From contig NZ_LWBP01000001.1 in NCBI RefSeq assembly GCF_002078015.1, forward strand, positions 186,001 through 250,000: a stretch of DNA of 64,000 bases. Direction: 5' to 3'. Below the pieces are notes generated by a model. The model searched no databases and was not told the origin of the DNA. It saw nothing but the letters and a program-made list of their open reading frames with translations. The stretch's first letter is position 1, and every line of letters starts with the position of its first letter. A program made the position numbers and the translations under genes. Shown here in pieces: positions 26,242-47,727 of this stretch. This DNA comes from Niastella populi. GTDB lineage: Bacteria; Bacteroidota; Bacteroidia; Chitinophagales; Chitinophagaceae.

Positions 26242-26269
26242 TGCTATTAATTATAATTTGTACTTGCAT

Positions 26270-26544
26270 GGTGCTATTCGTTATTCGGCAATCGGCAATC
26301 GTGAAATCCCGACAAGTCGGGACAGGCTGGCAAACGTGAAAGCCCTATACTCGTGATTAATAACTAATTTCACCATGGCCCTGTTTCTCAAACTGTCCCT
26401 TTCAATTCGCCGTTCAACCTGTTAGCTATTAATTGAGGTGCTGTACTGAGTGCCTTTATCACCTCTATCAACATTTCAACTATTTGTCACACTGTTCCAC
26501 ATAGGAATCCTTGTCAACCTGTTAACCCGTCAACTTTTCAACTT
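26270..26544. repeat. Repeat-rich spacer between SusD and dehydratase genes
   Basis: The 301-base gap (26242-26542) holds GGCAATCGGCAATCG words (near 26287), a 7-bp stem TCCCGAC-AA-GTCGGGA (26307-26322) and a GTCAACCTGTTAACCCGTCAAC block (26513-26544) that is related to words at 9340-9379 and 33978-34011 and runs to the SusD stop codon. No gene is seen. The spacing suggests that the dehydratase gene is separately expressed or that the SusC/D transcript is processed here. Confidence 0.65.
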
Positions 26545-28084
26545 ACTGTTTATCCCACCACACCCTCGTGCTCAGCATATCCGGTCCCTGGCGGCTGATC
26601 GCTTCATTCACATTATTCGTATTCACGCTCAATTCAGAAGTAGGGTAGGTAAGCCTTCTTATGAATGTGTTATTGGGTACATCGGGATTATTCGGTTGTC
26701 CATACGGATTGGGTGTAAGTGCCGGAAAGCCACTTCTTCTGAAGTTAGCAAAAGCTTCCGGTCCGTTCAAAAATGATGCGATCCAGTATTGCGTATTTAT
26801 CTGTTCCAGTTCACTACCGAAGGTAAGCGGGTTGGCGGCAACGTAAGTGTCGCGGTCGGTGGCGGAAATGGCGGAATTGGGGTCATAAACCGCCATCTGG
26901 TCCATATGCGCCCTGATGCCATCGGCAAAATAGCCGGCGGCGGTACCGGTGGTGATCCATCCGCGGAACCGGGCTTCGGCCAGCAGCAGGTTGGTTTGCG
27001 CCGCTGTTACCAGGAATACGGGTGAAAAGGTTTTCACTATCCTGCGGCGGTCAACCTGGCTGTAATCATAAAAACTGGCGAGCCCATCGGCGGTAGCGGC
27101 AGCCCCAATGGTGCCATTGTCTTTTCCTATAGGCATTCCAATCTGTTTTGCAGGGTCGGTAGAGCCAATGGCCACTGTTTGGGTAGCGCCGCTGCTGGCG
27201 CCCACATACCTGATGGCGATCGCCTTCAACCGCGGGTCGTTGGTGCTCTTCAACTGGTCAACGAACGGTTTGGCAAGGTAAAAGTTGGCCGCCTCGCTGC
27301 CATTGAGCGTAGCTCCTATGGGTTGTGTGAAGTTGGCGTCATGGCGAATATAGGCATTGTCGGAATTGGCGGTAATGACGCCCCCGGCCACAGCCGCCTG
27401 CACGGTGCTTTGCGCTTTGGCCGGATCCACTTTACTCAAACGCATCCCGGCGCGCAGCAACAGCGAATAAGCGAACTTTTTCCATTTGGCCACATCGCCG
27501 GCATACAGCACATCACCGGTTTCAATGTTGCTGGTGGTAGTAAGGGCTGCTGCCGCTTCGGTAAGTTCCTGGATGATCTTTGCATATATGTCCTGCTGGC
27601 GATCGTATTGGGGAAACAGGATGCGCTCTGCGAAACCGGCGCCGCCCTGTGAATAGGGAATATCTCCATACTGATCGGTAAGGATCATAAATACATACGA
27701 CTGGTAGATCCGCGCCATGTTGTACATGTTGGTGCGGGTTGAAAGATCTTTGGAGCGGGTCAATGCGTCGTAGGTGTTCTTTATCACGCTTTGATAATAG
27801 GCTGTCCACATTGGTTGCGTGGTTACATCCCGGCTGTCCTGGTTAAAATTGGCGCCTGCCAGAACACCGCCATTGGGCGTTACCATCTGTTGTACGATGC
27901 CTACGTCGAATACCAGCGATTTTACCGGGAACGAAGTATTGATAATGGCCTGGTTCAGCAGAATGGCCGGGTCGAGCGAAGTGGGATTGGTCTCATTCAC
28001 ATTCAGGTCGCTCAACCCCTTTTCACAGGAAGCAGAGAAGCCTAAAAGGAAGACCAGCGTTATATATTGTGCGATCTTTTTCAT
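26543..28084 (-). CDS. SusD-like outer-membrane lipoprotein (SusD-like_2 type)
   Basis: A 513-residue lipoprotein: signal MKKIAQYITLVFLLGFSASC with Cys20 as the lipidated residue. The body has the features of the shorter SusD-like_2 branch: LSDLNVNETNPTSLDPAILLNQAI after the signal, an NMARIYQSYVFMILTDQYGDIPYSQ segment in the TPR region, and a C-terminal FLNGPEAFANFRRSGFP block. This branch pairs with SusC transporters for oligosaccharides or other compounds. It lies 11 bases downstream of the SusC gene. Compared with the first SusD of the window (642 residues) it belongs to a different subfamily, so the two loci are not recent duplicates. Confidence 0.93.
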   Translation of the reverse strand: MKKIAQYITLVFLLGFSASCEKGLSDLNVNETNPTSLDPAILLNQAIINTSFPVKSLVFDVGIVQQMVTPNGGVLAGANFNQDSRDVTTQPMWTAYYQSVIKNTYDALTRSKDLSTRTNMYNMARIYQSYVFMILTDQYGDIPYSQGGAGFAERILFPQYDRQQDIYAKIIQELTEAAAALTTTSNIETGDVLYAGDVAKWKKFAYSLLLRAGMRLSKVDPAKAQSTVQAAVAGGVITANSDNAYIRHDANFTQPIGATLNGSEAANFYLAKPFVDQLKSTNDPRLKAIAIRYVGASSGATQTVAIGSTDPAKQIGMPIGKDNGTIGAAATADGLASFYDYSQVDRRRIVKTFSPVFLVTAAQTNLLLAEARFRGWITTGTAAGYFADGIRAHMDQMAVYDPNSAISATDRDTYVAANPLTFGSELEQINTQYWIASFLNGPEAFANFRRSGFPALTPNPYGQPNNPDVPNNTFIRRLTYPTSELSVNTNNVNEAISRQGPDMLSTRVWWDKQ

Positions 28085-28095
28085 GATGCAAGGTG

Positions 28096-31000
28096 TTAGA
28101 ATTTAATATTCAGATTTAAGCCAAGGCTGCGGGTGGTTGGTAAACCGGGTGATTCAAGCCCTACCTGGTTGTCGGAACCAAACCCAAATGTTTCGGGGTC
28201 TATATTGTCGACCCATTTCTTCAGCATCAGTACATTGTTGGCTACGAGGTCGAGTTTCAGGCCTTTTACGGGCCATTTAGCCGGAATGTATTTGGTAAGG
28301 TCGTAACCCAGCGACACCTGCCGCAGCTTCCAGTAACCGCTGTTATAAATAACCGGCTCCACTATTTGTTGCGTACGCAGGTGTTCCCAGTAGGTTTGCA
28401 CCGCTGCAACGGCGTTGTTGGGATTGCCGTTGACATCTACGCCGGCGCCCTTTACACCGCCTACACGCCCTTCAAGCGTTCTTTTGTGCAGGCCATGGCG
28501 GATGGCATTGAAGTTGGTGCCCGACAGCATCTTTCCGCCCAGTTTGTAATCGATGAATACGGTAAGGTTAAGCCCTTTATAATTGACGGTGTTCAGAAAA
28601 CCGCCTACCCATTTGGGCAATGCGCTGCCGAACAATACAAAATCGGGGGTGCGCTGCGGTAAGCCGTTCGATTGAAATATCTGTTGTCCTTTTAAATCGC
28701 GGTTGTATCCGTAACCGGCAATCTGTCCCATTTCTTCACCTACCACATGCCGGGTTTCTCCGTTGAACACATGCGTACCGGTGGTTATACGCTCACCTGG
28801 TTTGTCTGAGATAATGCTTAGTACTTTGGTAATGTTGTACGAGGTATTGGCCGTAAATTCCCAGGTAAGGTCGGCTGTTCTTACCGGTGTAAGGTTCAGC
28901 ATGGCCTCAAACCCGTAGTTACGGCTTTTACCGCTGTTGATCGGCGTATTCAGATAGCCCGATGCATCTGAGATCTGTACCAGTACAATCTGATTGCTGG
29001 TGATCTTCCGGTAGGCGGCAAGGTCGACTATTACCCGGTTATTGAACATCCGCATTTCCAAACCCGCCTCCACTTCGGCTACCCGGCTGGGTTTCAGGTT
29101 CGGATTGGGTAATGTAGTACCGGAGGCATTGTTGCTGATATTGCTGGTGCCTACAGGTACCGGCTGCCCGTTGGGGTTGGCGATGAAATTTGCATTAGGG
29201 GTATAAAAAAGCTGGTTCGAATAGGGTTGTACATCGCCGTCGCTGCCAACCTCTGCGTAGCCTAACCGAAGTTTACCAAAGTTCAGCCAGGTAACGTTCG
29301 GGAGGTGTTCCGAGAATACATAACTACCCGAAACCGAGGGATATAAAATACTCCTGTTTTCAGGGGCCAGCGTGCTGAACCAGTCGTTACGCAGTGTACC
29401 GGTAAGGTAGTAGGTCTGGTTCAGGCCCAGTTCGGCCGAACCGTACAGTGAGTTAACGCCCTGTTCTATTCTTGTATATACCGGGTCTTTACCGCGGCCG
29501 TTCTGTACCGTATAAATTCCGCGGGTTATAAAATCGGTGACCACTACGTTGTTTATATCCGACCGTTTACGCATGCGGTTACCGCCTGCGTTGATGTTTA
29601 CATCGAGGCCGTCGAATTTCTTATTGGCATTCACCAGGAAATCGAGATTGGTTTCGCGGAAGCGGCGTGATTCCTGGGTGTAAATGCCGTTCACAAATCC
29701 CGGTGGCGCGGCGTTGCGCGAAGCCTGGCCGGTAGGGAAGTTGTTCACGTCCTCATCGCGCGCCCAGTAATCCTGTCCAAACCTGCCCTGCACACTCAAC
29801 CACGACAACAGGTTGTATTTAAGTGCCACATTACCGAAAATGCGGTCGCGTTTAATATTATGGAATTGTTCGGCCATAACCCAGTAGGGGTTGGTGCGGT
29901 TGGTGAACCTTGTCCAGGGATACTCATTTCCCTGCGCATTGTATTTATTTTCATCCAGCACCTTTAAGGGCATGGAGTTGGCCAGCGCCATCAGGGTGGT
30001 GGGTATGGAATTATCCTGGTTGGCGATATTTGGCGGGTTCTTATTGATCTCGCGGGAGTAGTTCACATTACCGGTCAACAGCAGTTGTTCAGATAAATTA
30101 TAACTGAAACCGAGGTTCATCGATTTGCGGTTGAATGAATTGTTCGGCATAATGCCTTTGTTATCGGTATTGTTCAACGATAACCGCATACCGCCTTTTT
30201 CGTTACTGGCTTCGAACGCTACGGTATTGGAAAGGTTTTGACCATTGCGGTAAAATTCCTTGATGCGGCTGCCTTGCGGCTGGTAAGGCACGGTGAGGTT
30301 ATTGAACAGGATATGCGTCATACCGGGTTCAAACTTTTCACCGAACGACCACTGGCCGGAAGTGGGGTTGGGGGTGGTGGGCCGAACGCCGTTCTCGCCC
30401 TGTCCGTATTCACTCTGGTAATCGGTGAAATCGAGCGGGGTGTCGTTGGTGTAATTCAGGTTGTATGTAACACCGATACCTTTTGTTTTTCCCTTGGTTT
30501 TTGTGGTGATCATGATCACCCCGTCTTTTGCGCGCGAGCCATAAAGGGCTGAAGCCGGTGCGCCCTTTAAGATGGTCATGCTTTCAATATCATCGGGGTT
30601 GATGCTCGATAACCCATCACCGCCATCGGCAAAAACGCCGCCGCCTTTAACGGAGATGGCATTGTCGTTGAAGTTGGTGTTATCTACCGGTACGCCGTTG
30701 ATAACGATCAGCGGGTTGTTTTGTCCGGAAATTGAAGATTGCCCGCGGATGCGGATCTTGGACGTACCGCCCGGCCCGGTGCCAAGCGAAGAAATGTTTA
30801 CGCCTGCCACCTTGCCCTGCAGGGCATTCATCACATTGCTGGTGCGGTTCACGGTCAGTTCTTCCGGTTTAACGTTGGTAGCGGAATAACCGAGGCTGCG
30901 GGCCGTCTTTTTTATACCAAGTGCCGTTACGATCACTTCGCCGAGGTTCTGGTTATCGGCTGTGAGGGAAACATCCACTACCGAACGGCCTTCAACGCCT

Positions 31001-31278
31001 ACTTCCATACTTTTAAAACCAACAGAGCTGAACACCAGCGTGGCATTGCTCCCGGCTGAGGGCGGCACCTGTATGGTGTATTTGCCTTCTGCGTTTGTTG
31101 AGGTTCCCTGTGATGTTCCTTTTACTATAACAGAAACCCGGGGAATTATTGTACCTTTTTCATCGGAAACTGTACCTGTAATAGTTTGAGCATGGGTAAC
31201 GGAAAGGAATAAATGTAAAGCGAGAAGCAGCCATAACCGCGCATAACGGGGAGGCCTGCCACTGGTATACTTTTTCAT
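28096..31278 (-). CDS. SusC/RagA-type TonB-linked outer-membrane transporter
   Basis: A 1060-residue complete SusC protein. The start at 31278 (MKKYTSG) is chosen because it directly precedes a signal peptide (LWLLLALHLFLSVTHAQ); the open frame extends upstream to 31365, but that part runs into repeat sequence. Domains in order: carboxypeptidase-regulatory-like domain (TITGTVSDEKGTIIPRVSV, about 30-110), plug with the SusC signature (VTALGIKKTARSLGYS), then the barrel ending RSLGLNLNIKF. It imports a ligand with the SusD encoded just downstream. The gene is divergent from an AraC regulator, and the region between contains near-palindromic repeats that could be its control sites. Confidence 0.96.
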   Translation of the reverse strand: MKKYTSGRPPRYARLWLLLALHLFLSVTHAQTITGTVSDEKGTIIPRVSVIVKGTSQGTSTNAEGKYTIQVPPSAGSNATLVFSSVGFKSMEVGVEGRSVVDVSLTADNQNLGEVIVTALGIKKTARSLGYSATNVKPEELTVNRTSNVMNALQGKVAGVNISSLGTGPGGTSKIRIRGQSSISGQNNPLIVINGVPVDNTNFNDNAISVKGGGVFADGGDGLSSINPDDIESMTILKGAPASALYGSRAKDGVIMITTKTKGKTKGIGVTYNLNYTNDTPLDFTDYQSEYGQGENGVRPTTPNPTSGQWSFGEKFEPGMTHILFNNLTVPYQPQGSRIKEFYRNGQNLSNTVAFEASNEKGGMRLSLNNTDNKGIMPNNSFNRKSMNLGFSYNLSEQLLLTGNVNYSREINKNPPNIANQDNSIPTTLMALANSMPLKVLDENKYNAQGNEYPWTRFTNRTNPYWVMAEQFHNIKRDRIFGNVALKYNLLSWLSVQGRFGQDYWARDEDVNNFPTGQASRNAAPPGFVNGIYTQESRRFRETNLDFLVNANKKFDGLDVNINAGGNRMRKRSDINNVVVTDFITRGIYTVQNGRGKDPVYTRIEQGVNSLYGSAELGLNQTYYLTGTLRNDWFSTLAPENRSILYPSVSGSYVFSEHLPNVTWLNFGKLRLGYAEVGSDGDVQPYSNQLFYTPNANFIANPNGQPVPVGTSNISNNASGTTLPNPNLKPSRVAEVEAGLEMRMFNNRVIVDLAAYRKITSNQIVLVQISDASGYLNTPINSGKSRNYGFEAMLNLTPVRTADLTWEFTANTSYNITKVLSIISDKPGERITTGTHVFNGETRHVVGEEMGQIAGYGYNRDLKGQQIFQSNGLPQRTPDFVLFGSALPKWVGGFLNTVNYKGLNLTVFIDYKLGGKMLSGTNFNAIRHGLHKRTLEGRVGGVKGAGVDVNGNPNNAVAAVQTYWEHLRTQQIVEPVIYNSGYWKLRQVSLGYDLTKYIPAKWPVKGLKLDLVANNVLMLKKWVDNIDPETFGFGSDNQVGLESPGLPTTRSLGLNLNIKF

Positions 31279-31345
31279 ACCGGCAAGTTGTTTTGGTGAG
31301 TAATCGTTGGTTAATGGTGTTCCACAAATGTGTGCGGTGAACAGC

Positions 31346-31541
31346 AGGTGTGGCACACCTAACATTAAAAGGAAAATTATCTGGTATTGGTATGAAAAAC
31401 TTCCAAAATAAAACTACGTTGGATATTGTACAGGCCGGTTGAATAAATTTCCTTTCTTTATATAAAGGGGGCCACACCTAAACGCTGCGAACAGGAGGTG
31501 TGGCACACCTGAACTGACGAACCAGAGGTGCGCCCACACCT
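31346..31541. repeat. AGGTGTGGCACACCT near-palindromes in the divergent SusC / AraC region
   Basis: The 15-base near-palindrome AGGTGTGGCACACCT occurs exactly at 31346-31360 and 31496-31510, with partial copies at 31471-31479 (CCACACCT) and 31526-31541. The same core forms the hairpin arms at 4413-4474 and 5674-5721 in the first PUL. Here the copies lie between the start codons of SusC (31278, minus) and AraC (31558, plus), so they could be operators as well as dispersed repeats. No full-consensus promoter was found for either gene. Confidence 0.75.
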
Positions 31542-31557
31542 GCATATAAAATGCCAT

Positions 31558-32445
31558 ATGAATCAATTTGTTCTGCAATATGGTAAATCAAACGAGCTGC
31601 TTTTATTCCCGCATATTCTCGAAGTGGGATTAAAGAAGAATGCATCTGTTTCATTCAACACTTTTTTAACCACGGCCACCGAGGGTTTGAGGCTTTATTA
31701 TATTATAGAAGGCCGCTTCGAGTGGCGGATCAATAACCAGCCTGTTATTCTATATCCCGGCGATGTGGCGGTAATTATGCCCGGCGTTCCCTTTGGCAGC
31801 GATAAGGGCAACCTCGAGGTCGGCGCTTTTACCTGGATCCACCTCGGTATTCAAAAGCTCGAAAACGGACAGGTTGTACCGGGTAAATGGAGCGGCCTGT
31901 CAGACAGCGAAGGCGCGGCCATTGGCAAGATCTTATTACTGAACCCCTCACCGGTATTGAGCCGGTTCAGCGAAGCCGGAAAGATCCTCAAATGCATTCA
32001 AAGCGAATTGTTCAGCACCGAAGTGGCTTACCAGGCGCGCGTCAATCACCAGCTCGATGAATTGCTTATACAGGTTACCCGGCAGTTGACGCGGCAAAAT
32101 CATTCCGCCCGCGACTTCCCAAAAACTTTTATGCACCTGGAGGAGATGTTGCGCCAGAACCTGGCGCATCAATGGACCGTGGAAGAAATGGCCGCCCTGG
32201 TTGGAATGGGCACTACGTTATTTACAGAAAAAGTAAAAAGCTATTCGGGATTTTCACCCATCAATTACCTGATCAATATCAGGATCTCTGAAGCCATCAG
32301 GTTGTTGAAGCGGCCCGATATCACTGTGACCGATATTGCGCTGGACACGGGGTTCTATTCGTCGCAGCATTTTTCAACCACTTTTAAAAAGCTCACCGGT
32401 TACCGGCCGAGTGAGTTCAGGAATAATCATTTGCGTAATATATAA
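31558..32445 (+). CDS. AraC-family transcriptional regulator with cupin N-domain
   Basis: A 295-residue regulator. ATG 31558 is chosen over the GTG at 31528, which lies inside the repeat copy. Residues about 20-150 form an AraC-type ligand-binding cupin (RLYYIIEGRFEWRI, YPGDVAVIMPG). Residues about 195-295 form the double helix-turn-helix: WTVEEMAALVGMGTTLFTEKVKSYSGFSPINYL and VTDIALDTGFYSSQHFSTTFKKLTGYRPSEF. These regulators usually activate nearby sugar genes on binding a sugar. The kinase gene starts 11 bases downstream, and the SusC/SusD genes are divergent, so both sides are probable targets. The effector is unknown but could be the sugar acid handled by the locus. Confidence 0.93.
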   Translation: MNQFVLQYGKSNELLLFPHILEVGLKKNASVSFNTFLTTATEGLRLYYIIEGRFEWRINNQPVILYPGDVAVIMPGVPFGSDKGNLEVGAFTWIHLGIQKLENGQVVPGKWSGLSDSEGAAIGKILLLNPSPVLSRFSEAGKILKCIQSELFSTEVAYQARVNHQLDELLIQVTRQLTRQNHSARDFPKTFMHLEEMLRQNLAHQWTVEEMAALVGMGTTLFTEKVKSYSGFSPINYLINIRISEAIRLLKRPDITVTDIALDTGFYSSQHFSTTFKKLTGYRPSEFRNNHLRNI

Positions 32446-32456
32446 TTACCATACAC

Positions 32457-33995
32457 ATGAAATGCATCATTACAATAGAATTGGGCACAAACGGGATAAG
32501 GATGTTTGCCTACGACCTCGATGGAAAGGTTATCGGTTCCATGAGGGGCTACTATCCAACATTCCATACCGAGCCCGATCACAGTGAGCAGGACCCTGAA
32601 CAGATATTTATTACCACCCTGTATGTGCTGAAGAATATTCTGAACGAATACATCCATCCAAAAAAATATAAGGTTGCCAGCATTTGTTTCTGCGCTTCCA
32701 TGCACAGCGTGCTGGCGGTCGATAAAAACGGCAATCCATTGGGCAACGCCATTACCTGGGCCGATAACCGGGCCAAGAAGGAAGCGCAGGAACTGCGGCG
32801 TTCAGAACTGGGGAAGAAGCTCTATGCGGCCACCGGTACACCCATTCATCCCATGTCGCCCCTGGTGAAGATCGCCTGGATAAGGGAGCATGATGCCGGC
32901 CGCTTTAAACAAACCAGCAAGTTCCTCGCTATAAAAAGTTATATCATTCATCAACTCACCGGTGAGTACATGATCGATTACAGTATTGCATCTGCTACCG
33001 GGCTGATGAATATCCATACCATAAAATGGGAAACCGACGCCCTGCAATATGCTGGCATAACGGCCTCAAAACTGCCGGGGCTGGCGCCGGTATTTACCAG
33101 TGCCGGAAAACTGAAAAAAGCCTATCAGCAGTCATTACGTTTACCGGCCGATACAAAGATCCTTATCGGCTCCAGTGACGGCTGCCTGGCCACTCTGGGC
33201 GATGGCGTAAAAGGCGAGGGGAAGGCCACCATAACCATCGAAGACAGCGGCGCCGTGCGGGTAATGGGACCGGCCGTATTGAAAGACGATAAAATGCGCT
33301 TCTTTAATTACCTGCTTACTGATAACTGTTATGTTTCCGGCGGACCAACCAATAATGGCGGGAATATCTTTGAATGGTTCACGCGGCAGTTCGGTGATTT
33401 TACCAATCCATTCGATATAGAGAACAGCATCGGGCAATTGATGGAAGAAGCGTCCAAAGTGCCTGCAGGTTCCGATGGGTTGCTGTTCCTGCCATATTTA
33501 TTGGGCGAACGCGCGCCTATCTGGAATGCCAATGCCCGCGGCGCCTATTTCGGGTTGAATATAAAACATGAACGCAAACATTTTGTGCGGGCTACCATCG
33601 AGGGCATCATGTATGAGATCTACAGCATTGGCAAAACGCTGGGTGAGCAGCGAAATATCAAAAGTTTGTCGGTGAACGGCGGTTTCGGTACCATTCCTTT
33701 TTGTACCCAGTTGATCGCCGACCTGTTCAATAAACCCGTGCGGCTTCGCCGCCAGTTTCACAGTGTAAGTTTTGGGGCTTTTCTATTAAGCGCCACCGAA
33801 ATGGGGATCTATAAATCACTCGATGATGCCGCCAAAACGGTTGAACTGCCCGATGTATATAAACCCAACAAACAGCATCATGCCATCTATGCCGATTACT
33901 TTACCATTTTTGAAAAGCTGAGTGCAAAGTTGTTCGATGAGTTCGAGGCCATAGATGAATTGCAGCATAAGTATGCCGTTAAGTTGACGAGTTAA
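32457..33995 (+). CDS. FGGY-family carbohydrate kinase, gluconokinase-like
   Basis: A 512-residue FGGY kinase. N-terminal phosphate loop IELGTNGIRMFAYD (usual DxGT is ExGT here), ITWADNRA and DYSIASATGLMNI, two segments typical of FGGY gluconate kinases, IGSSDGCLATLGDG, and the C-terminal ATP-binding VNGGFGTIPFCTQLIADLF. It probably phosphorylates gluconate or a related sugar acid or ketose in the cytoplasm. It is placed 11 bases after the AraC gene and upstream of the aldolase/dehydratase pairs, and is likely co-transcribed. The last codons (KLTS then stop) are encoded by a repeat word, as if a repeat replaced the original end. Xylulokinase-like activity is the main alternative. Confidence 0.85.
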   Translation: MKCIITIELGTNGIRMFAYDLDGKVIGSMRGYYPTFHTEPDHSEQDPEQIFITTLYVLKNILNEYIHPKKYKVASICFCASMHSVLAVDKNGNPLGNAITWADNRAKKEAQELRRSELGKKLYAATGTPIHPMSPLVKIAWIREHDAGRFKQTSKFLAIKSYIIHQLTGEYMIDYSIASATGLMNIHTIKWETDALQYAGITASKLPGLAPVFTSAGKLKKAYQQSLRLPADTKILIGSSDGCLATLGDGVKGEGKATITIEDSGAVRVMGPAVLKDDKMRFFNYLLTDNCYVSGGPTNNGGNIFEWFTRQFGDFTNPFDIENSIGQLMEEASKVPAGSDGLLFLPYLLGERAPIWNANARGAYFGLNIKHERKHFVRATIEGIMYEIYSIGKTLGEQRNIKSLSVNGGFGTIPFCTQLIADLFNKPVRLRRQFHSVSFGAFLLSATEMGIYKSLDDAAKTVELPDVYKPNKQHHAIYADYFTIFEKLSAKLFDEFEAIDELQHKYAVKLTS

Positions 33996-34077
33996 CGGGT
34001 TGACGAGTTGACCAGGAGGTTTTCACCTTTGCCGTTTCCCGTTTCACGATTGCCGTTATACGATTCACGATTCACGT
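33978..34077 (+). repeat. GTTGACGAGTTAAC and CGATTCACGATTCACG words after the kinase gene
   Basis: GTTAAGTTGACGAGTTAAC and a second GTTGACGAGTTGACC (33978-34011) begin inside the last codons of the kinase gene. They are followed by GTTTCCCGTTTCACGATTGCC and ACGATTCACGATTCACG words (34034-34077). The aldolase start codon follows at 34089. The words are related to those at 9340-9379 and 26270-26544. Confidence 0.7.
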
Positions 34078-34088
34078 AAAACTGTCAT

Positions 34089-35012
34089 ATGAAAAATAAG
34101 GTCCTTTTTATAATTCTCCTGCTGCACGGCACCCTGCTAAGTGCACAACAGGTAACGCTCACGCCCGAACAGATCAAAGCGCTCACGCCCGAATGGAAAG
34201 GCGAGCGGTCTGCCGACGGGCGGCCGCATGTTCCCGATAAATTATTGGAGCGTTTAAAGCATATCAGGCTCGAAGAAGCCTGGGGCATCTTACGCAACAA
34301 AGGATATATGAACCAGTTCGAAGGCGACTGGATGGTGCTGCATACCGATTCGGCCATGACCGGCCGCGTGGTAACGGCGCAATACCTGCCGTTACGGCCC
34401 GATGTAGATAAACTGGTGAAGGATAAAGGCAAAGCGGAGGGCCGCATTGGCGCACCCAATTCATGGCCCATCGACGTGCTGAAGAAAGGAGATGTATACA
34501 TTGCCGATAGTTATGGGAAAGTGATCGATGGCACCCTTATCGGCGATAACCTCGGTAACGCCATTTACACAAAGTCTGCCCGCGGCGTGATCTTCTATGG
34601 TTCGGTGCGCGATATAGAAGGGCTTGAAGAAATTAAAGGTTTCAACGCCTGGATCAAAGGATACGATCCTTCGTATATACAGCAGATGATGTTAGGCGGT
34701 ATCAACATCCCAATACGCATTGGCAGGGCCACTGTTTTGCCCGGTGATGCGGTGCTGGCGAAAAAAGGCGGCGTGGTATTTATTCCTGCTCATCTGCTGG
34801 AAGAAGTAGTGCTCAATGCCGAGTTTATTGCATTGCGCGATGCATTCGGTCACCAGCGGTTGCGTGAAGGAAAATATACACCGGGACAAATAGATACGCA
34901 GTGGACCGGCGAGATCAAAAAAGATTTCCTGAAATGGCTCGATGCAAATCCTGATAAGCTGCCAATGAGCAGGCAGGAGTTGGATTCGTTTATGAAAGAC
35001 AGAACGTGGTAG
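34089..35012 (+). CDS. Exported RraA-like class II aldolase, first copy
   Basis: A 307-residue protein with a Sec signal (hydrophobic run LFIILLLHGTLLSAQ), so probably periplasmic, which is unusual for this fold. The core (about 90-250) matches the RraA / HMG-CHA aldolase family. From the Asp in IGDNLG to the Arg-Asp in GSVRD there are exactly 20 residues, the D-x20-R-D motif of class II pyruvate aldolases; metal would bind at the second Asp. An N-terminal extension (TPEQIKALTPEWKGERSADGRPHVPD) and a C-terminal GHQRLREGKYTPGQID region are shared with the second copy at 38049. Family aldolases split 4-hydroxy-2-keto acids to pyruvate and an aldehyde or keto acid. The next gene encodes a Tat-exported dehydratase, which could supply such a substrate. 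Confidence 0.85.
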   Translation: MKNKVLFIILLLHGTLLSAQQVTLTPEQIKALTPEWKGERSADGRPHVPDKLLERLKHIRLEEAWGILRNKGYMNQFEGDWMVLHTDSAMTGRVVTAQYLPLRPDVDKLVKDKGKAEGRIGAPNSWPIDVLKKGDVYIADSYGKVIDGTLIGDNLGNAIYTKSARGVIFYGSVRDIEGLEEIKGFNAWIKGYDPSYIQQMMLGGINIPIRIGRATVLPGDAVLAKKGGVVFIPAHLLEEVVLNAEFIALRDAFGHQRLREGKYTPGQIDTQWTGEIKKDFLKWLDANPDKLPMSRQELDSFMKDRTW

Positions 35013-35165
35013 GAAGTTGTAAGTAGGAAGTTGTAAGTAATAAGTAATAAGTAGTAAGTAGGAAATACGAAGTAGGAAGTAGGAGGTACGAAGATTTGAG
35101 GTAAAAGAAAAAGTTTGAGTCTTAAAGTTTCAACCTCTTCCTACATCATACTTCTTACTTCTCAA
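35012..35165 (+). repeat. GTAAGTA/GGAAGTT 7-bp tandem words
   Basis: Starting at the last base of the aldolase stop codon, 7-base words (GTAAGTA, GGAAGTT, ATAAGTA, GTACGAA) repeat for about 90 bases. The reverse-complement words (TTCCTAC, ACTTCTTACTTC) follow near 35130-35160, so the RNA can fold back on itself. The 204-base gap contains no gene. Confidence 0.75.
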
Positions 35166-35216
35166 ACATAATAATACATATCATCAACTGATAAACAGAA
35201 ATTAAATCAAATAAGT

Positions 35217-36692
35217 ATGAATCCCTCTCAAAAGATCTTAGAGAAACTCGGGCTGAAAGACCCCGATCCTTTACAGGATAATAATCCAATCGACCAGGCA
35301 CACAACAGCCGCCGTTCATTTATAAAGCGATCGGCCCTGGGTGGTATTGCGCTTGGCGGACTAAGTACGCTGTTGCCCATAGAAGACATCATTGCGCAAA
35401 CCACGCAGAAGGTAAGCCGGTATTCGAACCCGTCTGATCTGAAGATCACCGATATGCGCTATTGCATTGTTCAGAACGTTGGCCGTACGCCCATCATCCG
35501 CATCGATACCAACCAGGGCATTTATGGTTTGGGCGAAGTGCGCGATGGCGCCGACGAACGGTATGCGCTGATGTTAAAAAGCCGTATTCTGAATCAGAAT
35601 CCCTGTAACGTGGAAATGTTGTTCAAAATGGTGCGGCAGTTTGGCGGCCATGCACGGCAGGGCGGCGGTGTATGCGCGGTGGAAATGGCCCTGTGGGACC
35701 TCTGCGGCAAAGCATACAACGTACCGGTGTGGCAATTGCTGGGCGGCAGGTACCGCGATAAAGTACGCATCTATGCCGATACGCCAGAAGCGGCCAGCTT
35801 TGATGAGTTCAAGGCAAAGGTGAAACACCGCCTCGAAGACCAGGGCATGACCTGGCTGAAAATGGATATCTCCATCGGCGAAGTGAAAGGGCAGGAAGGC
35901 GCACTCGTGAACAGTAAGTTCTGGGGCAGCAACCTGGCGCAATGGCGCGGTGGTTATATGGACTATGCCAATATAAAACATCCTTTTACCGCCATACAGA
36001 TCACCGACAAGGGCCTCGATGGCATGGCGCAGATCGTGCACGATGTACGTTCGGTAGTAGGGTATGAGATCCCGATCTCGAGCGACCACTATGGTCATTT
36101 CGATCTGAACAATGCCATTCGCTGGGGTAAAAAGGTAGAACCTTACCGCCTTGCCTGGCTGGAGGATATGGTACCCTGGGAATACACCGATCAGTTCAAA
36201 AAAATGTCCGATGCACTGGAAACACCTGTATTGACCGGTGAAGATATTTACCTGCTCAGCGGTTTCAAGCCATTGATCGATGCGGGCGCCGTTGATATCG
36301 TTCATCCCGATCTGGCCACAGCCGGCGGTATACTTGAAACAAAACGTATTGGCGATTATGCCGAAGAAAAGGGTGTTGCCATGGCCATGCATTTTGCCGG
36401 CACACCGGTATCGTTTATGGCCAATGTGCATTGCGCGGCGGCAACACAAAATTTTCTTGCGCTGGAACATCACTCGCTTGATAACCCGTGGTGGGAAGGC
36501 CTGGTAAAAACAACTGATGGCCGCAAGCTGTTCGAAAAGGGATATGCGAATGTGCCGCTCACAGCACCGGGGTTAGGTATTGAACTGGTGGAAGAAGAAG
36601 TTAAAAAACATTTGCTGCCAACCAATAAAACCTATTTCGCGCCAACACCGGAATGGAATGATGTACGTTCTCACGACAGGTTATGGAGTTGA
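35217..36692 (+). CDS. Tat-exported enolase-superfamily sugar-acid dehydratase, first copy
   Basis: A 491-residue protein with a twin-arginine leader: SRRSFIKR at residues 31-38, an apolar stretch, and probable cleavage near 60. Residues about 75-190 are the enolase capping domain and about 190-450 the barrel. Visible active-site groups are Lys215 and Asp217 (LKMD), metal ligands Asp290, Glu316 and Glu342, and His392 in MAMHFAGTP, as in the mandelate racemase/mannonate dehydratase branch. These enzymes remove water from aldonic acids to give 2-keto-3-deoxy acids. Folding with metal in the cytoplasm before Tat export fits the family. It is paired with an exported RraA-like aldolase gene upstream. 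The substrate stereochemistry cannot be told. Confidence 0.87.
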   Translation: MNPSQKILEKLGLKDPDPLQDNNPIDQAHNSRRSFIKRSALGGIALGGLSTLLPIEDIIAQTTQKVSRYSNPSDLKITDMRYCIVQNVGRTPIIRIDTNQGIYGLGEVRDGADERYALMLKSRILNQNPCNVEMLFKMVRQFGGHARQGGGVCAVEMALWDLCGKAYNVPVWQLLGGRYRDKVRIYADTPEAASFDEFKAKVKHRLEDQGMTWLKMDISIGEVKGQEGALVNSKFWGSNLAQWRGGYMDYANIKHPFTAIQITDKGLDGMAQIVHDVRSVVGYEIPISSDHYGHFDLNNAIRWGKKVEPYRLAWLEDMVPWEYTDQFKKMSDALETPVLTGEDIYLLSGFKPLIDAGAVDIVHPDLATAGGILETKRIGDYAEEKGVAMAMHFAGTPVSFMANVHCAAATQNFLALEHHSLDNPWWEGLVKTTDGRKLFEKGYANVPLTAPGLGIELVEEEVKKHLLPTNKTYFAPTPEWNDVRSHDRLWS

Positions 36693-36763
36693 ACGCGGAA
36701 CACTTAACGCGGAACGCAGAACGCGGAAGGCAAAACGCGGAACGCAGAACGTTGAAGGCAAAT
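36689..36763 (+). repeat. AACGCGGAACGCAG tandem words
   Basis: Seven or more 7-9 base units (AACGCGG, AACACTT, AACGCAG, AAGGCAA) start at the last codon of the dehydratase gene and run 75 bases. The word family differs from the neighbouring junctions. A related GCGTTCCGCGTT word lies at 40412-40423 after the second dehydratase gene. Confidence 0.75.
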
Positions 36764-36794
36764 CAGGAAATAACCGAAAAAATAATTTATCTCG

Positions 36795-37919
36795 ATGAAG
36801 CGATCAGCTTTTTTTTACGGCCTTTCTGCCGTCGCCCTGGTATTGTATGTGATATTGGCTTTACGTGCGGTGCATGACTGGGCGGGTTGGGTGTTGGCGT
36901 TGGGTTTTATAAGCCTGGCTATTGCGTTCCGGGGTAACCGGTTCCTGCAGGGATTGTCATTTACCGTGCTCATATTTGCCGTTGTGACCATTGCCCTGTA
37001 TCACCCGGAATATTTTCTTCAATGGGGCGGCTTCAAATTGAGCGAACTGATCATTCCCCTGATACAACTGATCATGTTTGGAATGGGCACAGCCATGAGT
37101 GTAAAGGATTTTACGGCTGTGATCAAACATCCGAAAGGGGTAGTTATCGGCGTTATGAGCCAGTTCGTCATTATGCCCTTTGTGGGTTTTTTGCTGGCGT
37201 CTGTTTCCGGTTTCCCGCCTGAAATTGCCGCCGGTATAGTGCTGATCGGTTGTTCGCCAAGCGGACTGGCCTCTAACGTTATGTCATACCTGGCAAAAGC
37301 CAACCTGGCATTATCCATAACCGTCACCTCCATCACTACCTTACTGGCGCCATTTGTAACCCCGTTACTGATGAAATTGCTGGCAGGCGCCCTGGTTGAA
37401 ATAGACGTACTGAAAATGATGTGGGATATTTTCAAAATGATCATCATACCGATTGGCGCCGGTTTATTATTCAACAAACTGCTGAGCGGCAGATCTAAAT
37501 GGCTCGATGATGCCATGCCGCTTGTTTCCATGTTCGGCATCGCTTTCATTCTCGTCATCATCGTTGCAGCGGGCCGCAATAACCTGCTGATGATCGGGCC
37601 GGCTTTGATTGTTTTGGTATTTATCCATAACAGCTGCGGTTACCTGCTTGGTTATTGGGCGGGCCGGTTGTTCAAACTACCGGAACGGGATTGCCGCACG
37701 ATTGCCATTGAAGTGGGTATGCAAAATGGCGGACTGGCTTCCGGCATCTCCAAAGAAATGGGAAAGATGGCAACCGTTGGGCTGGCGCCAGCTGTCTTCG
37801 GACCGTTGATGAACATTACCGGTTCGGCACTTGCCAGCTGGTGGCACAATCATCCGCCGGAGACGAAAGAGGCAGCGCATAGCGAAGAGCGCCCGGTGAA
37901 ATCGAAAAGCATTCGTTGA
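36795..37919 (+). CDS. BASS-family (bile acid:sodium symporter-like) transporter
   Basis: A 374-residue membrane protein with about ten helices starting near residue 5. Family motifs are visible: GMGTAMSVKDFTAVIKHPKGV, the GCSPSGLASNVMSYLAKANLALSI region (crossover helix with the sodium-site residues) and GMQNGGLASGI near 310. BASS proteins import organic anions with sodium; members carry bile acids, pantoate and, in plants, pyruvate. The gene sits between two aldolase/dehydratase pairs on the same strand, so uptake of a keto acid made in the periplasm, or of the sugar acid itself, is a reasonable guess. The C-terminal tail is polar (ETKEAAHSEERPVKSKS). Confidence 0.9.
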   Translation: MKRSAFFYGLSAVALVLYVILALRAVHDWAGWVLALGFISLAIAFRGNRFLQGLSFTVLIFAVVTIALYHPEYFLQWGGFKLSELIIPLIQLIMFGMGTAMSVKDFTAVIKHPKGVVIGVMSQFVIMPFVGFLLASVSGFPPEIAAGIVLIGCSPSGLASNVMSYLAKANLALSITVTSITTLLAPFVTPLLMKLLAGALVEIDVLKMMWDIFKMIIIPIGAGLLFNKLLSGRSKWLDDAMPLVSMFGIAFILVIIVAAGRNNLLMIGPALIVLVFIHNSCGYLLGYWAGRLFKLPERDCRTIAIEVGMQNGGLASGISKEMGKMATVGLAPAVFGPLMNITGSALASWWHNHPPETKEAAHSEERPVKSKSIR

Positions 37920-38048
37920 ACGATACATGCGAAGTAAGATGTTAGAACCAGGAAAATGGATGACCAGGTATGATAATAAAGATCTATAAAATTAAAGCGC
38001 TTTGTACTTCTTACCTCATTCCTCTTATTTCAGATAAAAAGAATCTAT

Positions 38049-38996
38049 ATGAATAAAATATTTGTAATAAGCCTGCTAATTGTAATTGTAAGCTACGCAA
38101 CAACCACGCAGGCGCAGCAGATAACGCGCGATCAGCTCCTTGCTTTAACACCTGAATGGAAAGGAGAACGTTTTGCAGATGGCAGGCCCAAAGTGCCCGA
38201 CAGTCTCCTCGATCGAATGAAACTGGTAACGCTGGAGGAAGCCTGGGCGGTGTTACGCAACGAGAATTTCAAACACCAGTACGATGGCGAATGGAAGACC
38301 ATCAACCCCGACAGCGTGCTGGTAGGCCGTGCGGTAACGGCCATCTTTATGCCCGGCCGGCCAGATATCCATCGGGTTATCGACAAATTCGGCATTCGCG
38401 ACAAACGCGTGAAATCGCAGAATAGCTGGCCGATCGATCTGCTGGTAAAACGTGACGTTTATGTCGTTGACCAGTTCGACGCCTATGAGGATGGGCCTAC
38501 GATCGGCGATAACCTCGGTAATTCGATTTATGCTAAAACCGGCAATGGGATCGTATACGATGGCGCCGTTCGCGATGTGAAAGGGTTGAAAGAGATCGGT
38601 GGTTTCACCTCTTTTTTTCGCAGTTACCATCCTTCGCATCACCTGAACAATCCCGATGGCGACCTGAATACCACGCTCGTTGGCATCAATCAGCCTACCC
38701 GTATTGGCAAAGCCACTGTTATGCCGGGCGATATTGTATTGGGCCGCGATGGCGGTGTCATCTTTATACCGCCGCACCTGGCAGAGAAAGTGGTGAAAAC
38801 TTCCGAGATCGTACGGCTGCGCGATATGTTCGGTCACCAACGGTTGCGCGAAGGAAAATATACGCCCGGACAAATAGACACACGCTGGAGCGAAGAAATA
38901 GAAAAAGATTTTTCGAAATGGCTCAATGAGCATATCAATGAACTGCCGGTTTCAAAAAGCCAGATCCAGGAGTTTCTGAAAGGAAGAACATGGTAG
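38049..38996 (+). CDS. Exported RraA-like class II aldolase, second copy
   Basis: A 315-residue paralogue of the protein at 34089. It has a Sec signal (FVISLLIVIVSYATTTQAQ), the same N-terminal block (TPEWKGERFADGRPKVPD), the D-x20-R-D motif from IGDNLG to GAVRD, and the same end (GHQRLREGKYTPGQID, then FLKGRTW). By eye identity with the first copy is around half, so the duplication is old and the two may accept different substrates. It differs most in the loop around 195-215 (HPSHHLNNPDGDLN against the shorter DPSYIQQMM in copy one). It follows the transporter gene by 129 bases and precedes the second exported dehydratase gene by 114 bases. Confidence 0.85.
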   Translation: MNKIFVISLLIVIVSYATTTQAQQITRDQLLALTPEWKGERFADGRPKVPDSLLDRMKLVTLEEAWAVLRNENFKHQYDGEWKTINPDSVLVGRAVTAIFMPGRPDIHRVIDKFGIRDKRVKSQNSWPIDLLVKRDVYVVDQFDAYEDGPTIGDNLGNSIYAKTGNGIVYDGAVRDVKGLKEIGGFTSFFRSYHPSHHLNNPDGDLNTTLVGINQPTRIGKATVMPGDIVLGRDGGVIFIPPHLAEKVVKTSEIVRLRDMFGHQRLREGKYTPGQIDTRWSEEIEKDFSKWLNEHINELPVSKSQIQEFLKGRTW

Positions 38997-39000
38997 TTTA

Positions 39001-39092
39001 TAGTTCACTGTTCATAGTTTATTAGGTATTGAGTTCCTGAGTCGGGCTTTTACATATAAACTGAATAACTCAATAACTGAATAACTGGTGTA
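39001..39092 (+). repeat. TTCATAGTTTAT / AACTCAATAACTG inverted words
   Basis: The 114-base gap holds TAGTTCACTGTTCATAGTT words, then ATTGAGTT and its reverse complement AACTCAAT, and two ATAACTGAATAACT words before the next start. The ACTGAATAACT word recurs near 24499-24512. Low-complexity spacer with hairpin potential; no gene. Confidence 0.6.
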
Positions 39093-39110
39093 TGCATAAA
39101 ATAAAATTCA

Positions 39111-40391
39111 ATGACACAATTTAATTCAAGACGCTCATTTATATCAAAGGCCGCTATTGCCGCCGCCATGACCCCATTCGCCGCCTTATCCACCTTCGGC
39201 CGCGAATACGAACAGGCGGTGGACCGCACGCCAAAAGCGTCGCCGCCAACCAATTTAAAAATTACAGAGGTAAAATGCGGTTATATCAGGGGCAGCCTGT
39301 TTGTGAAAATATATACCAACCAGGATATCTGGGGGTGCGGTGAAGGCGTTGACGCCATTCCCGGCACCTATCACCTGGTAAAGAATTTCGGTGAACGCAT
39401 CAAAGGCAAAAGCCCGTTGAATGTGCACCGCCTGTTTGAAGATATCCGTAAATCGGGTTTCTTCCAGGGCGCGCAGTCCGGCATGTATGTGGCGGTTTTG
39501 TCGGCCATCGAAACCGCTTTGTGGGACCTTGCCGGCAAAGCGCTTCAGTTGCCCGTTTACCAGTTATTGGGCGGTAAGTTCCGCGATAAGGTACGCGTGT
39601 ACTGCGATACCGCGTTGTATCAGCGCAATCTGCCCATCCCGAAAGACTTTGCCGATGCCGCGCTGGCCGCAAAAAAGATGGGCTTTAATGCCATCAAGTT
39701 CGATCTCGACCAGGCGAATGATCCCAATAAATATGATTACTATAACTGGACAGCCAGCGCCGCCGAGTTACAGCGGATGTACGACCAGCTGGCCGCAGCA
39801 CGGCAAGCGGTTGGGCCCAATATCGATATCTGTGCAGATATGCACGGGCGTTATGATGCGGTAACCGCGCAGGCTGTTGCCAAAAAAGTAGAAGGGTTGA
39901 ACCTGATGTGGCTGGAAGAACCGGTGCCTGCCGAAAATGTAGAAGCGTATAAACTGATCACCGAATCGACCAGTACGCCCATCTGCGCCGGTGAAAATCA
40001 TTACCTCGCTTATGGTTTCAGAAGAATGCTCGAGATTGGTGCGGTAGATATCGTGATGCCCGATCTGCAAAAATGCGGTGGGCTGGGCGAGGGGCAGCGC
40101 ATTGCCAACCTGGCCAATTTGTATTACGTGCCATTTGCACCCCATATGGTGGCTTCCTTCCTCGGCGCCATGGCGTCGGCGCATGTTTGTGCTTCCGTGC
40201 CTAATTTTATGATCCTCGAATGGCAGTCGTATTTTCATACACAACCCATGTTCAAAGAGATCGTTACCTACGATGGCGAATGGGTGAATAACAGTTTTAT
40301 CACGGTTAGCGACAAACCGGGTATCGGCGTTGAGATCAATGAAGCCGCGATGAAAAAATATGCCATCCCCGGTATCCCATTTTTTGAATAA
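39111..40391 (+). CDS. Tat-exported enolase-superfamily sugar-acid dehydratase, second copy
   Basis: A 426-residue protein with a short twin-arginine leader (SRRSFISKAAIAAAM, Arg7-Arg8). Capping domain about 48-165, barrel about 165-400. Active-site groups: Lys196 and Asp198 (IKFD), metal ligands Asp243, Glu269 and Glu295, His245 in ADMHGRYD, Asp318 in MPDLQKCGG and His345 in APHMVASF, the pattern of the mandelate racemase branch that includes galactonate-type dehydratases. Only distantly similar to the first copy, so it probably handles another epimer or performs another step. It is the last gene of the run; the following 366 bases hold a small hairpin (40426-40444). Confidence 0.87.
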   Translation: MTQFNSRRSFISKAAIAAAMTPFAALSTFGREYEQAVDRTPKASPPTNLKITEVKCGYIRGSLFVKIYTNQDIWGCGEGVDAIPGTYHLVKNFGERIKGKSPLNVHRLFEDIRKSGFFQGAQSGMYVAVLSAIETALWDLAGKALQLPVYQLLGGKFRDKVRVYCDTALYQRNLPIPKDFADAALAAKKMGFNAIKFDLDQANDPNKYDYYNWTASAAELQRMYDQLAAARQAVGPNIDICADMHGRYDAVTAQAVAKKVEGLNLMWLEEPVPAENVEAYKLITESTSTPICAGENHYLAYGFRRMLEIGAVDIVMPDLQKCGGLGEGQRIANLANLYYVPFAPHMVASFLGAMASAHVCASVPNFMILEWQSYFHTQPMFKEIVTYDGEWVNNSFITVSDKPGIGVEINEAAMKKYAIPGIPFFE

Positions 40392-46669: not shown

Positions 46670-46698
46670 GCTTATAGGAAAGGTGCTATTGCCGGTTT

Positions 46699-47676
46699 TT
46701 ATTGTTTAAATAATATTACTGTATCGTTTTCTTTGCGGTGACTGACATTGGCAAGCAGCCTGATCTCATCGAGCACGGCATCGATAGATTGTTGGTTGAA
46801 CCGGGCTGTAATAGTTGGCATTACCGGTTGTTTGAGTAATGAACTGTCTGCCGTTATGTTAATGCCGAAATGATGCGAAAGGGTAGCGGCCACCTGGTCA
46901 ATAGGGGTGTTGTCGAATTGCAACAAACCTGTTTTCCATGAAAGAAAGTTGGGATCGTTCAGGGTTTTGATCTCAAAACCTTTTGCATCCAGTTTGCTGT
47001 ATTGTTGGGGGGTAATGATATGTTTTTCACCGTTGCCGCTTTTATCAGTGAACTGCACTTTGCCGGTGGTTACTATCAATTCATCCTGCCGGTTGGTGGT
47101 ATTGATGGTAAAAGATGTACCCAGCACTTCGAGGGTGGCCCGTACTGTTTGAATACGGAAAGGATGGCCGGCGTCATGTTGAACCTCAAAAAAGGCTTCC
47201 CCTGTTAATGCTACTTCCCGTTCTTTACCGGTAAAGGTTTGGGGATAAGAGAGCGTAGCGCCTTTGCGCAGGCTAACCTGCGAGCCATCGGGCAGGGTAA
47301 TGGACAAATTGTTTTGTTCCCCTTTAGCGACCTGCAATCCGGGTGTGCTTTTCCGGAAAAATAACAAGCCTGCAATAAACAGTATTCCCACTATGGAGGC
47401 CGCGGCCGCCAGGCGGGTGATCATCCGAATGGGCGCCTTTTTGGTGCCATGGTCGAGTCTTTGGTCAATTTTATCCCATGCGGCTGTTGTATCATATGTA
47501 TTTTCCGTTAATATGGCGCCCGATTCATTCCATACTTTTTCCAGCTGCCGGTAAATGGTATCGTGTGACGAATTTTCTGCGCGCCACTGCTGCAGGCTGG
47601 CATTTTCATCGGCGTTTGCCTGGCCCTTCAGTTCTTTTTCAATAAGCGCGATTATATATTCGGGTATTTGTATCAT
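46699..47676 (-). CDS. FecR-family anti-sigma factor
   Basis: A 325-residue protein. The N-terminal cytoplasmic part (about 1-85) is the sigma-binding region with the WDKIDQRL segment; one membrane helix lies at about 90-110 (ITRLAAAASIVGILFIAGLLF); the periplasmic FecR domain spans about 120-215 (LPDGSQVSLRKGATLSYPQTF, GEAFFEVQHDAGHPFRI, VLGTSFTI). The C-terminal DUF4974 domain (about 250-320) has GLLQFDNTPIDQVAATLSHHF. It holds the sigma factor until the STN domain of the receptor signals. It lies 51 bases downstream of the sigma gene and 29 bases upstream of the receptor gene, the standard order in Bacteroidetes. Confidence 0.95.
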   Translation of the reverse strand: MIQIPEYIIALIEKELKGQANADENASLQQWRAENSSHDTIYRQLEKVWNESGAILTENTYDTTAAWDKIDQRLDHGTKKAPIRMITRLAAAASIVGILFIAGLLFFRKSTPGLQVAKGEQNNLSITLPDGSQVSLRKGATLSYPQTFTGKEREVALTGEAFFEVQHDAGHPFRIQTVRATLEVLGTSFTINTTNRQDELIVTTGKVQFTDKSGNGEKHIITPQQYSKLDAKGFEIKTLNDPNFLSWKTGLLQFDNTPIDQVAATLSHHFGINITADSSLLKQPVMPTITARFNQQSIDAVLDEIRLLANVSHRKENDTVILFKQ

Positions 47677-47727
47677 GTGTCGTGTGTTGATAAGACAGGG
47701 AATTGTAAAAAACTCCTAATGTTTTGG

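Follow-up and report, generated by a model that had tools for sequence, protein, structure and literature searches.

Gene content of the locus

The window analysed here is a 64,000-nucleotide stretch of the genome of Niastella populi, of the Chitinophagaceae (contig NZ_LWBP01000001.1, forward-strand positions 186,001 to 250,000). Five open reading frames (ORFs) lie collinearly on its forward strand at 34089-40391, as part of a larger locus at 24520-40391 (Table 1), and may encode a periplasmic pathway for sugar acids: an RraA-like protein and an enolase-superfamily protein, a BASS-family carrier, and a second RraA-like/enolase-superfamily pair. A preliminary description, made from the sequence alone, had reported this arrangement on one strand, and it was recovered here with clear Pfam families: PF03737 (RraA-like; cut-off 24.5 bits) at 62.5 bits in RraA1 and 58.3 bits in RraA2, MR_MLE_C (cut-off 29.4) at 157.7 bits in dehydratase 1 and 199.8 bits in dehydratase 2, and SBF (PF01758; cut-off 24.3) at 139.4 bits in the carrier. 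The genome (8.6 Mb) has three RraA-like genes, all members of the predicted exported RraA family described below, and five MR_MLE_C matches, four of them above the cut-off; two of the five are at this locus.

Table 1. Features of the locus, in coordinates of the window
Feature	Position	Strand	Basis or remark
RraA1, RraA-like, predicted exported; proposed class II pyruvate aldolase, partner of dehydratase 1	34089..35012	+	PF03737, residues, model
Dehydratase 1 (ENO-A type), enolase superfamily, Tat leader	35217..36692	+	MR_MLE_C, TAT_signal_seq
BASS-family carrier, proposed importer of the 2-keto acid product	36795..37919	+	SBF (PF01758)
RraA2, RraA-like, predicted exported; partner of dehydratase 2	38049..38996	+	PF03737, PTIGDN sub-motif, D-x20-R-D
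Dehydratase 2 (ENO-B type), enolase superfamily, Tat leader by eye	39111..40391	+	MR_MLE_C, D-M-H
AraC-type regulator	31558..32445	+	Listed ORF start is GTG 31528; ATG 31558 agrees with relatives
FGGY carbohydrate kinase, gluconokinase-like, without leader	32457..33995	+	419.9 bits, under the 648.55 cut-off
SusC-type outer-membrane transporter	28096..31365	-	Named by eye
SusD-type lipoprotein	26543..28084	-	Named by eye
IlvD/EDD-family dehydratase, without leader	24520..26241	-	Passes IlvD-type subfamily, 889.2 vs 539

Protein families and active-site residues

An exact D-x20-R-D spacing had been claimed for both RraA-like proteins, and alignment bears this out; in RraA1 the motif is D153-x20-R174-D175, with a TLIGDN sub-motif. 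A D-x20 spacing before R-D is a mark of class II pyruvate aldolases. Conservation was followed in 150 stop-free RraA matches of at least about 780 bases, the set also used for the pairing and tree results below: R-D is present in 149 and the full motif in 142. In the HMG/CHA aldolase, passages of PMC5065237 describe Arg-123 as essential and Asp-124 as metal-binding. The AlphaFold2 model of RraA1 (mean predicted local distance difference test score, pLDDT, 91.2) matches the RraA-fold proteins 5x15, 3k4i and 3noj in Foldseek, the HMG/CHA aldolase 3noj at E 5.2e-13. From these residues and this fold, RraA1 and RraA2 are proposed to be class II pyruvate aldolases of the RraA fold. Identity with the E. 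coli-type RraA regulator was rejected: the E. coli protein has R-Q where the window proteins have R-D, is shorter, and has no leader.

Of the dehydratase residues on the preliminary list, Lys-x-Asp, three metal acids and the late His are kept in both proteins; the histidine of the D-x-H motif, which was not listed, is present in dehydratase 2 (D-M-H) and missing from dehydratase 1, where D183-F-H185 of E. coli DgoD corresponds to D-H-Y, within D-H-Y-G-H. This histidine (DgoD H185) acts as a general acid. The two proteins represent two types. All 12 aligned sequences of ENO-B, the type of dehydratase 2, have K-x-D, D-M-H, E, E and the late His. ENO-A, the type of dehydratase 1, shares K-x-D, three acids and the late His, but D-H-[YWTF]-G-H replaces D-x-H in 18/18 aligned sequences; this type also has about 25-30 additional residues inserted behind Lys-x-Asp and, in a separate alignment, an extra invariant E-H-H near the C-terminus (28/28). 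The dehydratase 1 model (mean pLDDT 81.3, with leader and insert poor) has 2qq6 as its best match, others including gluconate dehydratase 3tw9/3twa and the gluconate-bound enolase 3t6c; 2qq6 is also the nearest solved relative of dehydratase 2 by sequence.

For the carrier, the nearest solved relatives by sequence are 3zuy and 8oyf (ASBT_NM), and the GCxPxGxASNVM and EVGMQN regions (the cross-over sequences) are conserved in its alignment with 3zuy. BASS relatives transport pantoate, pyruvate and further 2-keto acids, and plant members take pyruvate and longer 2-keto acids, as described in passages of PMC10645422.

Recurrence of the arrangement and matched pairs

The predicted exported RraA family (E <= 1e-20) occurs in 24 of 395 sampled genomes of the phylum, and any RraA-like gene in 47. 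Two sets of loci were surveyed. The first, covering all 24 genomes, comprises 34 loci: 32 neighbourhoods, the window, and the third copy from the same genome. The second consists of named loci, the best 80 of at least 559 confirmed places; as best matches only, these lean towards close relatives, and they overlap the first set (for example, L102 and L020 lie on contigs of equal length and cover nearly the same range). Linkage was counted where the focal RraA gene had 5 kb or more of sequence on each side (30/34 and 60/80 loci, respectively).

Within 5 kb of RraA, an enolase-type gene is present in 22/30 and 51/60 of these loci and a BASS gene in 17/30 and 41/60; a DgaE-like gene takes the place of the enolase type in 5/30 (with an amidohydrolase) and 3/60. 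Absence of the arrangement from relatives had been named as a refutation; it is present in them, with conserved leaders (see below). Chance co-location was rejected on the recurrence of the RraA-dehydratase pairing. The complete order IlvD-SusD-SusC-AraC-FGGY-RraA-ENO_A-BASS-RraA-ENO_B is found in five of the 80 named loci (L053, L054, L056, L057, L059), in all of which the IlvD gene runs off the end of the fetched stretch; in L108, L109, L110 and L116, FGGY and AraC genes are divergent from SusC-SusD-RraA-ENO_A-BASS-RraA-ENO_B. The nearest named relatives of RraA1 among the matches listed are from Niastella sp. OAS944 and Longitalea luteola, at 92% identity. Named records account for 112 RraA sequences: 109 from Bacteroidota and three that are possibly contamination, two of these from Planctomycetota metagenome-assembled genomes and one from a cyanobacterial assembly.

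The two pairs are also distinguishable by sequence. All 45 RraA genes directly 5' of ENO_B encode G-P-T-I/M-G (PT-type), and all 59 directly 5' of ENO_A encode G-T-L-I/M-G (TL-type), as do all 13 near DgaE-type genes; the remaining 33 of the 150 have neither a direct downstream ENO gene nor a DgaE-type neighbour. The sub-motif was chosen by eye from the alignment and counted afterwards, and pairing was by next downstream gene: labels by nearest gene would instead assign 15 TL-type RraA proteins to ENO-B. In the locus surveys ENO-A and ENO-B were separated by the D-H-x-G-H pattern, which is therefore not independent evidence in those counts. On a FastTree tree of the 150 RraA sequences the ENO_A/ENO_B label needs one change, or five when the DgaE group is added. 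The matched sub-types and the single change on the tree suggest that every aldolase has its own dehydratase, and hence that there are two substrates or two stereoisomers. In L042 (11054-11716), a short frame made up of the start of an RraA gene and the end of an ENO gene is an apparent remnant of such a pair.

Predicted export leaders

Leaders were called by simple sequence patterns of our own and by reading by eye, rather than with SignalP. RraA1 begins MKNKVLFIILLLHGTLLSAQQ and RraA2 MNKIFVISLLIVIVSYATTTQAQQ; the former reads by eye as a Sec-type leader, with ..LLSA-QQ. Dehydratase 1 passes the NCBIfam twin-arginine (Tat) model TAT_signal_seq (21.6 vs a cut-off of 16.7). NCBIfam does not list that model for dehydratase 2, which begins MTQFNSRRSFISKAAIAAAM and whose leader, SRRSFISKA, was read by eye. 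TatC is encoded in the same genome.

Among relatives, the first pattern set called a Tat-type leader in 87/87 ENO-A and 53/56 ENO-B matches, the three others being one fragment and two DgoD-like proteins that have no leader and are encoded apart from the pair. Among neighbouring enzymes, the patterns called Tat-type leaders in 10/10 DgaE-like and 7/8 RidA-like proteins (the eighth is Sec-type), and Sec-type leaders in 15/17 amidohydrolases, 8/10 SMP-30 types, 6/6 pyrroloquinoline quinone (PQQ) types and 4/4 GSDH types. UxuA-like proteins are mixed (five Tat, one Sec, three none; n=9), and 6/11 AGE proteins have a leader. Controls were leader-free (FGGY 0/14, AraC 0/10, IlvD 0/6). The same patterns missed 16/151 untruncated RraA proteins, RraA1 among them, and called 75/77 BASS sequences (a membrane protein) leader-like. 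A second rule for RraA, a hydrophobic uncharged stretch before W-x-G-E-R, without a lipobox, held in 146/154 frames vs 2/31 FGGY, AraC and IlvD controls. Of the eight frames that failed it, six have a leader by eye (L043, L024, L036, L119, L123, L124), and in the other two no start could be read (L050, and L080, which begins at a contig end).

These patterns and readings agree with the export leaders originally described, Sec-type on the RraA-like proteins and Tat-type on the dehydratases, and they indicate that both are conserved among relatives. For this reason wrongly chosen start codons were rejected as the source of the leaders.

Exchangeable partners of RraA

The third RraA gene of the genome (C209; L004, 7327-13085), whose product has Ser at the position of the first Asp of the motif, lies beside genes for a Tat-led RidA-like protein, a Tat-led DgaE-like pyridoxal phosphate enzyme, a Sec-led amidohydrolase (above the PRK09237 cut-off) and a BASS carrier. 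The same combination of DgaE-like, amidohydrolase, RidA, RraA and BASS genes is found in L024, L026, L031, L128, L129 and L130, and without RidA in L022. In L129 (1573-9861) and L130 a PQQ-type dehydrogenase and an SMP-30-type lactonase stand in the same run, whose genes may together cover every step from an amino sugar to pyruvate in the periplasm. In L027 and L030, PQQ-type dehydrogenase and SMP-30-type lactonase genes are next to ENO, BASS and RraA; Tat-led UxuA-like proteins are encoded in L023, L027 and L032, and a leaderless one in L044. In L050 the RraA-ENO_B pair is near genes for glycoside hydrolases (GH127, GH3), an aldose epimerase, and araA/araB/araD-like genes recognized by eye. 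Several genes in these loci were assigned from their tblastn similarity to a single member that had itself been searched against families.

The DgaE and UxuA families make 2-keto-3-deoxy acids. The contexts in which partners are swapped all end in or begin from aldonate-type acids, and so they point to an aldonate-type 2-keto-3-deoxy acid as what RraA receives; they are the strongest argument for this substrate.

Two other kinds of neighbour were seen. An aldo-keto reductase without an evident leader is encoded near RraA in L022 (5678-6673), L049 and L076, and is a candidate for acting on the aldehyde product. In 17 loci, genes that look by eye like Gfo/Idh members lie no more than 8 kb from RraA, one of them (L085, 9898-11025) with a twin-arginine leader; they represent a possible link to periplasmic 3-keto-sugar chemistry.

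Surroundings of the core genes

The IlvD, SusD and SusC genes are divergent from the AraC, FGGY and core genes, which share the forward strand. The IlvD/EDD-family dehydratase is slightly under the L-arabinonate dehydratase cut-off (840.5 vs 882). Promoter and terminator scans found fewer hits than in shuffled sequence (10 vs a mean of 14.8, and 8 vs 12.0). The intergenic stretches flanking RraA1 (33980-34080 and 35013-35180) consist of short words repeated in degenerate form, among them GTTGACGAG, CACGATT and AGGAAGTA. Sigma factor-, FecR-like anti-sigma factor- and TonB-plug-like genes, recognized by eye on the reverse strand at 44135-48411, are apparently separate from the operon.

A possible periplasmic sugar-acid pathway

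We infer enzyme activities, substrates, the direction of BASS transport and periplasmic location from these families, residues, leaders and linkages, and put at roughly 60% the probability that the locus encodes a periplasmic sugar-acid pathway, in which dehydration and RraA cleavage are followed by keto acid import through BASS. SusC/SusD would bring a sugar or sugar acid through the outer membrane. Two Tat-exported dehydratases, one for each substrate or stereoisomer, would convert aldonate to 2-keto-3-deoxy acid in the periplasm, and a Sec-exported, metal-dependent RraA aldolase for each product would cleave this to pyruvate and an aldehyde. The BASS carrier, presumed sodium-coupled, would then take a keto acid into the cytoplasm, most likely pyruvate, possibly the 2-keto-3-deoxy acid itself; handling of the same substrate on the cytoplasmic side would fall to the IlvD-type dehydratase, the FGGY kinase and the AraC regulator. 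In the variant loci, deamination would take the place of dehydration ahead of aldol cleavage. Together, the loci fit a modular, periplasmic, non-phosphorylative Entner-Doudoroff-like route ending with keto acid import, and many Bacteroidota appear to carry operons that degrade sugar acids in the periplasm. The periplasmic reading of the preliminary description is thus upheld by recurrence, conserved leaders and front-end contexts, and weakened by the one dehydratase catalytic residue that dehydratase 1 misses.

That residue is one of several points that weigh against the pathway; with the D-x-H histidine missing, the chemistry of dehydratase 1 is less sure. The first motif Asp of RraA is S, A or N in 7/150, including the third copy of this genome. 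Scores of the core proteins fall short of specific subfamilies: NCBIfam cut-offs are unreached for the named dehydratase equivalogs (galactonate, gluconate, mannonate and others; best 178.8 and 235.3 bits vs 311), for LigK/HMG aldolase (57.2 vs 304.5 bits, so that RraA is not a LigK), and for the 'bass' subfamily (239.5 vs 326.3) and PanS (234.5 vs 400), and assignment to the named dehydratase, LigK or PanS equivalogs was rejected on these grounds; the DgaE-like enzyme likewise does not reach the DgaE models (172.1 vs 385.3; 138.3 vs 600). The first leader patterns were crude, missing 18/38 SusC-type proteins (SusC alignment starts being a poor guide to the start codon in this test) and tagging some BASS and SusC sequences as Tat. 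The FGGY kinase and IlvD dehydratase are without leaders, which places part of the locus in the cytoplasm. Linkage is incomplete: in the 5 kb on each side of RraA, only PQQ and SMP-30 types are present in L035 and only BASS in L063 and L101, L019 and L049 have none of the genes sought, and in the Dyadobacter loci L126, L127, L131 and L132 SusC/SusD, amidohydrolase and BASS accompany RraA without any dehydratase or DgaE type. The 32 largest unlabelled clusters, judged from their first residues without a family search, yielded no recurring gene that would act on the aldehyde product.

Another possibility, which we consider unlikely, is that the proteins are exported for other chemistry: ENO-A as an epimerase, racemase or lyase, and RraA as a decarboxylase or lyase that acts on some other sugar derivative in the periplasm, such as 3-keto sugars. 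The D-H-[YWTF]-G-H and E-H-H residues of ENO-A, invariant where aligned, would fit this, as would the Gfo/Idh-looking neighbours, Tat-led ones among them, and a haloarchaeal RraA-family protein beside mannonate dehydratase that passages of PMC10963439 give as annotated oxaloacetate decarboxylase. The complete dehydratase residues of every aligned ENO-B, the near-invariant R-D of RraA, and swap-in partners matching the DgaE and UxuA families argue instead for the sugar-acid pathway.

A more doubtful alternative is that dehydration is periplasmic and BASS imports the intact 2-keto-3-deoxy acid for a cytoplasmic 2-keto-3-deoxygluconate (KDG) kinase and 2-keto-3-deoxy-6-phosphogluconate (KDPG) aldolase, RraA having a side role. 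The longer 2-keto acids taken by plant BASS proteins (passages of PMC10645422), the leaderless FGGY kinase and IlvD dehydratase, and one gene for a KDPG/2-keto-4-hydroxyglutarate (KHG)-type aldolase in the genome are compatible with this; against it, that gene is on another contig, and RraA, the query of the survey, itself bears a leader and adjoins the dehydratase. From the presence of this aldolase gene, a cytoplasmic route may exist alongside the periplasmic one. Lastly, an ordinary cytoplasmic non-phosphorylative sugar-acid operon with non-functional leaders, the usual location for such chemistry and one that calling leaders by patterns instead of a trained signal-peptide predictor leaves some room for, is very improbable given TatC in the genome and both leader types in nearly all intact members, with none on the FGGY, AraC and IlvD proteins of the same loci.

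Beyond the sugar-acid pathway itself, the front-end genes raise the possibility, held tentatively and with less confidence, of a full extracytoplasmic route from sugar to pyruvate in Bacteroidota. PQQ/cytochrome-c dehydrogenases would oxidise an aldose or N-acetylglucosamine and pass electrons to the respiratory chain, an exported lactonase would open the lactone, exchangeable Tat-exported enzymes would dehydrate or deaminate the acid, and after RraA cleavage only pyruvate would be imported, via BASS. Such a route would amount to a modular form of the non-phosphorylative Entner-Doudoroff pathway, located in the periplasm and operating without ATP or cytoplasmic sugar uptake.

If the periplasmic pathway exists, the carbon chain of the sugar is split in the periplasm and a small keto acid imported, which would alter the picture of carbon uptake in Bacteroidota: electrons could reach the respiratory chain ahead of uptake, and some of the products could be lost to neighbours. 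Functions would also follow for a family at present filed as RraA, for a branch of BASS, and for Tat-led proteins of the enolase superfamily and of DgaE-like type that are so far unassigned.

Comparison with known systems

No exported RraA-dehydratase operon was found among the titles and abstracts listed in a literature search that covered few subscription papers and no bioRxiv preprints, which is no proof of absence. Passages of PMC12584681 place a Dyadobacter RraA-family protein under aromatic breakdown, and those of PMC5698469 describe a Zobellia carrageenan locus that includes an enzyme of the enolase superfamily and in which monosaccharides are taken up following hydrolysis in the periplasm. 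In natronoarchaea, an RraA-family gene and manD are drawn in one mannan-use cluster; the passages of PMC10963439 concerned give this RraA as annotated putative oxaloacetate decarboxylase and do not state export. The periplasmic 3-ketoglycoside route (LacABC/DUF1080), proposed for Bacteroidota among others, resembles the pathway suggested here in that sugar chemistry would precede uptake, but with different enzymes that cleave glycosides, splitting of the carbon chain being undescribed in the passages of PMC9007349 that concern it.

With the HMG/CHA aldolase of Pseudomonas putida (LigK/PcmE type, 3noj) the RraA proteins of the window have the RraA fold and the Arg-Asp pair in common; they differ in bearing leaders, in being about 70 residues longer, in their gene partners, and in sequence (19% identity in the Foldseek alignment). 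The carrier shares its Pfam family with ASBT_NM (pantoate) and plant BASS2 (pyruvate); compared with 3zuy it has about 40 extra N-terminal residues (the alignment runs from residue 61 vs 20) and stands in an operon with leader-bearing enzymes.

In the chitin oxidation (Ong) pathway of Pseudoalteromonas, deacetylation and deamination lead to a 2-keto-3-deoxy acid, which is cleaved, all in the cytoplasm. The DgaE/amidohydrolase/RidA loci resemble this pathway and DgaE-type glucosaminate routes, except that nearly all proteins here bear leaders; PpOngB was a weak match in the Protein Data Bank (E 0.00065).

In chemistry there is a parallel with the non-phosphorylative Entner-Doudoroff aldonate pathways, which have the same steps as predicted here, from aldonate to 2-keto-3-deoxy acid to pyruvate and aldehyde; in their phosphorylative cousin, the E. 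coli dgo operon (dgoTDAK), genes for dehydratase, aldolase, carrier and regulator are likewise clustered. The known aldonate pathways are cytoplasmic, the sugar acid being imported first. Here, by contrast, both dehydratase and aldolase have leaders, the proposed aldolase has an RraA-type fold, and transport by the carrier would come after the enzymes rather than before them.

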